From Nitrososphaerota archaeon (lineage in GTDB: Archaea; Thermoproteota; Nitrososphaeria; Conexivisphaerales; UBA164): a stretch of DNA of 38,908 nt. The translations under genes were made by a program, and so were the position numbers. Below, piece by piece: positions 6,002 through 8,791 of this stretch (the first letter of the stretch is position 1; each line of letters starts with the position of its first letter). The notes under the pieces were generated by a model that made no database searches, was not told the origin of the DNA, and saw nothing but the letters and a program-made list of their open reading frames with translations. The stretch covers positions 1 through 38,908 of the forward strand of contig JAMCTX010000007.1 of NCBI GenBank assembly GCA_023381255.1, written 5' to 3'.

Positions 6002-6010
6002 ATGTTACAA

Positions 6011-6020
6011 AAATTTAAAG
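6011..6020 (+). promoter_or_regulatory. TATA-like box ahead of the candidate RNA gene
   Basis: AAATTTAAAG lies about 25 nt before the point (near 6040) where sequence composition rises from AT-rich to GC-rich. It fits an archaeal TATA box for a plus-strand transcript. Confidence 0.35.
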
Positions 6021-6039
6021 ACTGTATGCCATCTTACAA

Positions 6040-6373
6040 TTTGTGAACTACGTCGCGCTAAACCGCGCCGCGTCCCGCTTCAATGGAACCAGCTTGCTCT
6101 CCATGAAGGTTACCCTCCATGAAGCGTAGAGGTCATTTCCTCTGCGGGCATTCTGGGTCTTTTTAAGACCCATGGGCTTATGTTCCCCCATCTCCACATG
6201 GGAGACATCGCTTATTCTGGAACCAGTGAGTACGGGAGCCGATGCGCTGCACGCGAAGTTCTGCTCACTTTCCTGTTGCGTCTCACTCATTCCGTTATTA
6301 TTATACAAAAACATGTATTTGACTGCCATTTTTGACAATTCATCCTTTGCTTAAAAGCAAAGGTTTTCTTGTC
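6040..6373 (+). ncRNA. Candidate structured non-coding RNA (family not identified)
   Basis: This 330-nt stretch is much richer in G+C than the adjacent intergenic DNA and has strong inverted repeats: GGGTCTT/AAGACCC (6155-6161 with 6165-6171), TCCCCCAT/ATGGGAGA (6184-6191 with 6198-6205, one G-T pair), a 12-nt stem with a central mismatch (6219-6230 with 6282-6293), and a tetraloop-like TAGAGG/CCTCTG element near 6127-6142. The plus strand has a TATA-like box upstream and ends in a hairpin followed by T-rich sequence. I looked for the conserved motifs of SRP RNA (GGAAGGGAGCA) and RNase P RNA (GAGGAAAGUC, CGGCUUA) and found no convincing match. A 96-aa minus-strand frame (6048-6338) exists but is not a recognisable protein. 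Confidence 0.4.
6334..6373 (+). terminator. Long hairpin with T-rich 3' flank
   Basis: CCTTTGCTT at 6344-6352 pairs perfectly with AAGCAAAGG at 6355-6363, and GACAA (6334-6338) pairs with TTGTC (6369-6373). On the plus strand the inner stem is followed by TTTTCTT. This would work as a transcript end for the candidate RNA or for the MetRS-beta-like gene. Confidence 0.5.
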
Positions 6374-6519
6374 ACATAATCAATAAAACCGGCTACAGAA
6401 CCAGTCAGGAACTACGATGCATCTTTGAGTTAATGCCAGCTATTTTCTGAATTATTTCTTGCCGAACGATGCCAAGCCATTCCTCTGCTTAAGTATTGCA
6501 GAATTAATGCGTCCCCTAA
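6374..6519. other. Intergenic stretch, nothing recognised
   Basis: There is no reading frame of note, tRNA or strong repeat between the hairpin and the end of the 78-aa Zn protein gene. Together with 6002-6373 it makes a gap of about 520 bp between protein genes. Confidence 0.4.
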
Positions 6520-8716: not shown

Positions 8717-8791
8717 TGGGCCGGGCCGGATTTGAACCGGCGACCCCCGCCATGTCAAGGCGATGTGCTGACCAAGCTACACCACCGGCCC
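8717..8791 (-). tRNA. tRNA-Val (anticodon GAC), no intron
   Basis: The acceptor stem GGGCCGG pairs with CCGGCCC, followed by discriminator A at 8717. The anticodon loop is UUGACAU with stem UCGCC/GGCGG, and the T arm contains GGUUCAAAUCC. CCA is not encoded (the next bases are CTT). The gene lies 8 nt after the L40e stop and 8 nt before the topA start, so it seems to be cut out of a shared transcript. Confidence 0.96.

Follow-up and report, generated by a model that had tools for sequence, protein, structure and literature searches.

A PATE-like derivative of a tnpB transposon keeping a putative omega/reRNA scaffold in a Nitrososphaerota archaeon

The closest described elements are the palindrome-associated transposable elements (PATEs), which are transposase-free IS605 derivatives in archaea, some of them carrying 3' sequence of tnpB (PMC3119063). 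That description is older than omegaRNA, and no omegaRNA was examined in PATEs there. TnpB binds an reRNA from the transposon 3' end in which ~16 nt of flanking DNA are the guide, and it cleaves targets adjoining the target motif of the element (PMC8612924). It is also able to make reRNA out of its own mRNA (PMC10278001).

The DNA analysed here, termed the window, is a stretch of 38,908 nucleotides (contig JAMCTX010000007.1, assembly GCA_023381255.1) from a genome of 1.28 Mb in 25 contigs that is 85% complete and that its ribosomal genes and RNAs mark as archaeal. The original prediction had placed a candidate new RNA gene at 6011-6373. From its sequence, the region at 6043-6382 on the minus strand was assigned with high confidence to a non-autonomous, internally deleted element of the IS200/IS605 superfamily (IS1341, TnpB-type), a PATE that keeps an omega/reRNA scaffold. 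This kind of element is already known, and the RNA aboard is absent from RNA databases. The region very probably encodes a structured RNA, as had been proposed, but this RNA appears to be the scaffold of a mobile element, read from the minus strand, and not a new host class.

The extent of the element was deduced from its copies. A BLAST search of its own genome gave 11 matches, of which 6 were almost complete and 83-100% identical; no match was obtained in 60 relatives or in a search of plasmid and viral contigs. The copies comprise six full units (326-355 bp) and one diverged unit, all at unrelated loci. When these were aligned with their flanks, the similarity ran from GTGAACTACG (the plus-strand left boundary, 6043) to ...CACATAATCA (6382) and was abruptly lost outside, giving sharp ends common to the six copies and a whole element of 340 bp in the window, with its left end at 6382 and its right end at 6043 (minus strand). 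The six full copies, with ends so defined, are too short for a transposase. Past GTTCAC at the right end, the flank was different in every copy compared. The only similarity outside the unit was a motif adjoining the left end, TTTAT in five of the six full copies and TTTAC in the sixth (minus-strand reading), which lies at 6383-6387 (minus strand) in the window and is presumed to be the target or TAM; the flanks differ beyond it, and no duplicate is present at the other end. Target duplications were looked for in the flanks of the copies, and none were found. No empty site was found at the base level, the flanking genes lying on different contigs in the same-genus genome. Since several copies are 98% identical, they probably represent recent insertions. 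Two further loci, L018 (at ~2662-2723 of that locus) and L019 (at ~2860-2901), hold left-end fragments only, of ~40-60 bp with TTTATTGAT on the outer side, and are apparently truncated or decayed copies.

The parentage of the element was deduced from a 1359-bp element on contig C10 (L017) that was reached via partial matches. It carries tnpB in two overlapping frames, equivalent to one frameshift, and the product matches Cas12f1-like_TNB and OrfB_IS605 (PF07282, PF01385). Over ~90 bp, up to a TATAATA box, the left ends of L017 and the window element share 88% identity; the left-end palindrome CCTTTGCTTTTAAGCAAAGG is also present in L017 with one loop base different; and the right end GTAGTTCAC is common to both. 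The layout of the right end is likewise shared, being CGCCCAGTTTTAACTGGGCG-TAGTTCAC in L017 and CGGCGCGGTTTAGCGCGACG-TAGTTCAC in the window, where the stem sequence is different and still complementary. TTTAT also adjoins L017 and three left-end fragments. Because both ends and the TTTAT motif match this 1.36-kb tnpB transposon of the same genome, the window element is considered an internally deleted, non-autonomous derivative. It has lost almost the whole coding sequence of tnpB and retains the palindrome of the left end, a TATA-like box, the omega/reRNA scaffold of TnpB, and the hairpin of the right end. In several further genomes from this order, tnpB genes or their remnants have a similar hairpin series and the terminus GTAGYTCAC at their 3' ends.

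Subterminal palindromes are present at both ends of the element. On the left, CCTTTGCTTTTAAGCAAAGG occupies 6344-6363 (minus strand) within a larger imperfect hairpin at 6333-6374, the DNA fold at this end giving z = -4.7, and on the right the hairpin occupies 6051-6070. The left-end structure (6333-6352/6355-6374) had originally been taken for a terminator hairpin; the hairpin exists, but as the palindrome at the left end of an IS605-type transposon. Similarly, the TATA-like box proposed as a promoter, AAAATTTAAA, is present at 6010-6019 but falls beyond the repeated unit, in host DNA. Within the element, a TATA-like box recognised by eye is TGTATAATAATAA at 6295-6307 (minus strand), about where the 88% homology to L017 ends, with TATAATA in both elements; it is presumed to be a promoter retained from tnpB.

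The structured core was assigned to the TnpB omega/reRNA scaffold, read from the minus strand and ending exactly at the right end. Compared with shuffled sequences, the minus strand folded with z = -4.7 for 6020-6345 and with z = -3.5 for the 136-nt 3' core at 6043-6178, and the plus-strand fold was weaker (z = -2.7). A covariance model (R1) built from eight sequences matched the core at 6043-6172 (minus strand) with 126 bits and also matched tnpB 3' ends. Within its own genome, R1 found 10 strong copies, three linked to tnpB and seven without a tnpB gene. Outside the training set, it scored 62 bits at the 3' end of an intact 426-aa tnpB of another genus (G004).

All helices are given on the minus strand from 5' to 3'. 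Helix H1 (6154-6172) is a perfect 8-bp hairpin (6154-6161/6165-6172). It is followed by the 5' arm (6144-6148) of a helix that encloses H2 (6128-6143) and the 11-bp H3 (6099-6124) and that closes with its 3' arm at 6074-6078. The terminal right-end hairpin H4 (6051-6070) then leads into the terminus TAGTTCAC (6043-6050), which occurs likewise as TAGYTCAC in tnpB elements from several genera of the order. Immediately beyond the right end on the 3' side, the host sequence AAATTGTAAGATGGCATACA (6023-6042, minus strand) is copy-specific and is presumed to be the guide by analogy with the ISDra2 TnpB (PMC8612924). The stems on which the original prediction relied are real; besides H1, they comprise a 12-bp helix at 6219-6230/6282-6293 (83%) and a hairpin in the area of 6184-6205.

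The covariation check that had been suggested gave the clearest support for H4. In 16 sequences, including TnpB-linked relatives, 90.6% of the cells were paired and 30 were double-changed, none of 500 shuffles scored as high, and slid versions reached at most 50% pairing. For the helix around H2 and H3, 81% were paired against at most 40% in slid versions, which is weaker support than for H4 and points in the same direction. The arms of H1 covaried as well, with 65 of 66 cells paired, a value not reached by permuted arms, although these arms had been chosen as hairpin-forming. The covariation term of RNAalifold on the sequence alignment was almost nil, which we put down to the middle part being poorly aligned.

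Upstream of the scaffold, the copies without tnpB carry a 5' domain at 6219-6293 (minus strand) that is closed by a 12-nt helix. In copy C8, this closing helix shows two compensatory changes and four broken pairs. The 5' domain (~100 nt) was found in no tnpB and had no convincing match in 300 genomes of the class; two weak matches were rejected as its source. Descent from tnpB leaves this ~100-nt domain unexplained, and this counts against the main reading. The domain shows weak complementarity to the right end, and a long rod in which the two are paired was considered as an alternative fold. The local scaffold fold was preferred because the inverted similarity was modest (2 of 1000 shuffles) and no compensation could be seen by eye in copy C22.

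The minus strand also contains a 96-aa frame (6048-6338), which was interpreted as the tnpB leader fused to the scaffold rather than as a conserved protein. The original prediction saw no fitting protein family for the region, and no Pfam family was found for the frame. The frame was rejected as a protein gene on this ground together with its start in the tnpB leader (MSKMAVKY versus MSKMTVLKY) and its broken frame in copies C23 and C8. The indels in copy C12 are multiples of three, which was judged not to outweigh the evidence against coding.

The fold, the GC-richness, and the intergenic position of the region would suit a housekeeping RNA of the host, either a new one or a diverged form of RNase P or SRP RNA. 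As the original prediction anticipated, both known RNAs exist in the genome, and both exceed the Rfam cut-off elsewhere, the archaeal RNase P RNA at C22:11095-11392 (190 bits) and the SRP RNA at C10:79153-79461 (139 bits). The covariance models for these RNAs (RF00373 and RF01857, respectively) gave no match in the stretch, nor did the proposed Rfam search find any family at E<=5. With both RNAs located elsewhere and the sequence belonging to a multicopy mobile unit, the housekeeping reading is therefore refuted and retains practically no probability. Among ordinary RNA genes, the window holds a tRNA gene at 8717-8791 (minus strand), immediately followed by a topoisomerase-like reading frame. 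The tnpB element L017 (G000:C10, ~79153-80907) lies ~90 bp upstream of the SRP RNA gene, and its would-be guide therefore falls in the SRP upstream region.

What the scaffold does in copies that have no tnpB was considered next to the conservation of its parts. In a comparison of the most diverged full copy, C8, with C21a, the scaffold was 95% identical, against 85% for the 5' domain and 68% for the left end. The 135-nt scaffold segment was the best conserved, with a Fisher p of 3e-5 for the C8 scaffold against the rest of the element. This is suggestive of constraint on the scaffold in TnpB-less copies, and only suggestive, because it comes from a single copy. A tentative reading, possible if somewhat doubtful, is that these copies are working stand-alone guide-RNA genes, that is, a mobile omegaRNA family with an added 5' domain that would be served by TnpB in trans. 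With every insertion, a guide directed at the empty site of that copy would arise, so that the family could persist with no nuclease gene of its own. Under the main assignment, the retained box would drive a minus-strand transcript through the scaffold into the flank, and the TnpB of another element, if present, would trim and bind it, with the first 16-20 nt of the flank as the guide. Such a guide would match the TTTAT-flanked donor joint left by excision, so that cutting this joint would promote restoration of the element by copying. Mobilisation would come from a Y1 transposase (TnpA) supplied in trans, through folding of the subterminal hairpins of the element in single-stranded DNA. We infer expression, TnpB binding, and trans-mobilisation by analogy with the described systems.

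The same element could instead be an inert PATE whose scaffold is kept solely because transposition needs the right-end DNA and hairpin, with no working guide RNA, and this is a serious contender, although still short of probable. In IS605 elements, the terminal hairpin and the right-end terminus are also substrates of the transposase. Decay of the scaffold points the same way, as C23 is without one H3 arm and the window copy (C7) has one mismatch in H4, and so does the state of tnpB in the assembly (85% complete), where only frameshifted or truncated genes of the matching clade were found and none intact. Against inertness, H1, H2, H3, and the enclosing helix reach inwards past the terminal hairpin, as far as 130 nt from the right end; the 135-nt scaffold segment is the part of C8 that changed least; and the TATA-like box has been retained. 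A further reading, that a host non-coding RNA family was domesticated from such elements and regulates via its guide-like 3' end, is very unlikely. It would accommodate a structured, multicopy RNA whose scaffold outdoes the ends in conservation in one old copy and whose extra 5' domain occurs in TnpB-less copies only. It conflicts with the unrelated loci and unrelated 3' flanks, with the 98% identity that marks several copies as recent, and with the absence from 60 relatives, and no shared target was seen.

For the proteins that would act in trans, the sole match to a Y1 transposase in the same 85% complete assembly has an internal stop, leaving no intact TnpA, and a scan of GTDB contigs with TnpB yielded nothing confirmed. 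The damaged tnpB genes and TnpA match, like the scaffold decay in C23 and C7, count against the main reading too. In the matching TnpB clade, across several genera, Gln replaces the catalytic Glu of RuvC-II (FQDD/YQND/TQKD motif), and the Asp residues of RuvC-I and RuvC-III are retained; such proteins are encoded by L017 (1567-2427, minus strand), L031, L033, L034, L043, L044, and L074. Two residues further along, a conserved Asp may stand in for the RuvC-II Glu, and the Gln-bearing enzyme could be rearranged or inactive. In a genome of the same genus (G001), 57 TnpB matches were spread over many contigs, and many are short C-terminal pieces, which suggests that this genome is heavily loaded with decayed elements of the IS605 type.

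With this assignment, a precise annotation takes the place of a false "new RNA class". Since Rfam missed this omegaRNA, other archaeal stretches like it may be mistaken for orphan non-coding RNAs. The genome, in which seven gene-less copies occur together with a tnpB element that matches them, also provides a defined case for asking whether guide RNAs outlive the nuclease gene and work in trans.

In comparison with known systems, the window element resembles MITEs in being short, non-coding, multicopy, and presumably trans-mobilised, and it differs from them in having neither terminal inverted repeats (its ends are TGAT... and ...TTCAC) nor target duplication. Like the archaeal omegaRNAs and sotRNAs (PMC12558985), its RNA belongs to an archaeal IS200/IS605-associated locus, although those RNAs are transposase-linked and come with expression data, whereas the window element is gene-less and its RNA is a predicted one. 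As in the omega/reRNA of ISDra2 (PMC8612924, PMC10278001), the scaffold shares sequence with the 3' end of tnpB in relatives and stops at the right end, followed by a variable flank. Unlike ISDra2, the window element has lost its tnpB gene, and any TnpB that serves its predicted RNA must therefore act in trans. The closest likeness is to the PATEs of Haloquadratum (PMC3119063), which share a transposase-free IS605 origin, near-terminal palindromes, no target duplications, and a homogeneous expansion of copies. HqIRS71 is especially close in that it retains part of the tnpB 3' region (PMC3119063). Compared with these PATEs, the window element belongs to another archaeal lineage and another sequence family, and it adds a 5' domain.
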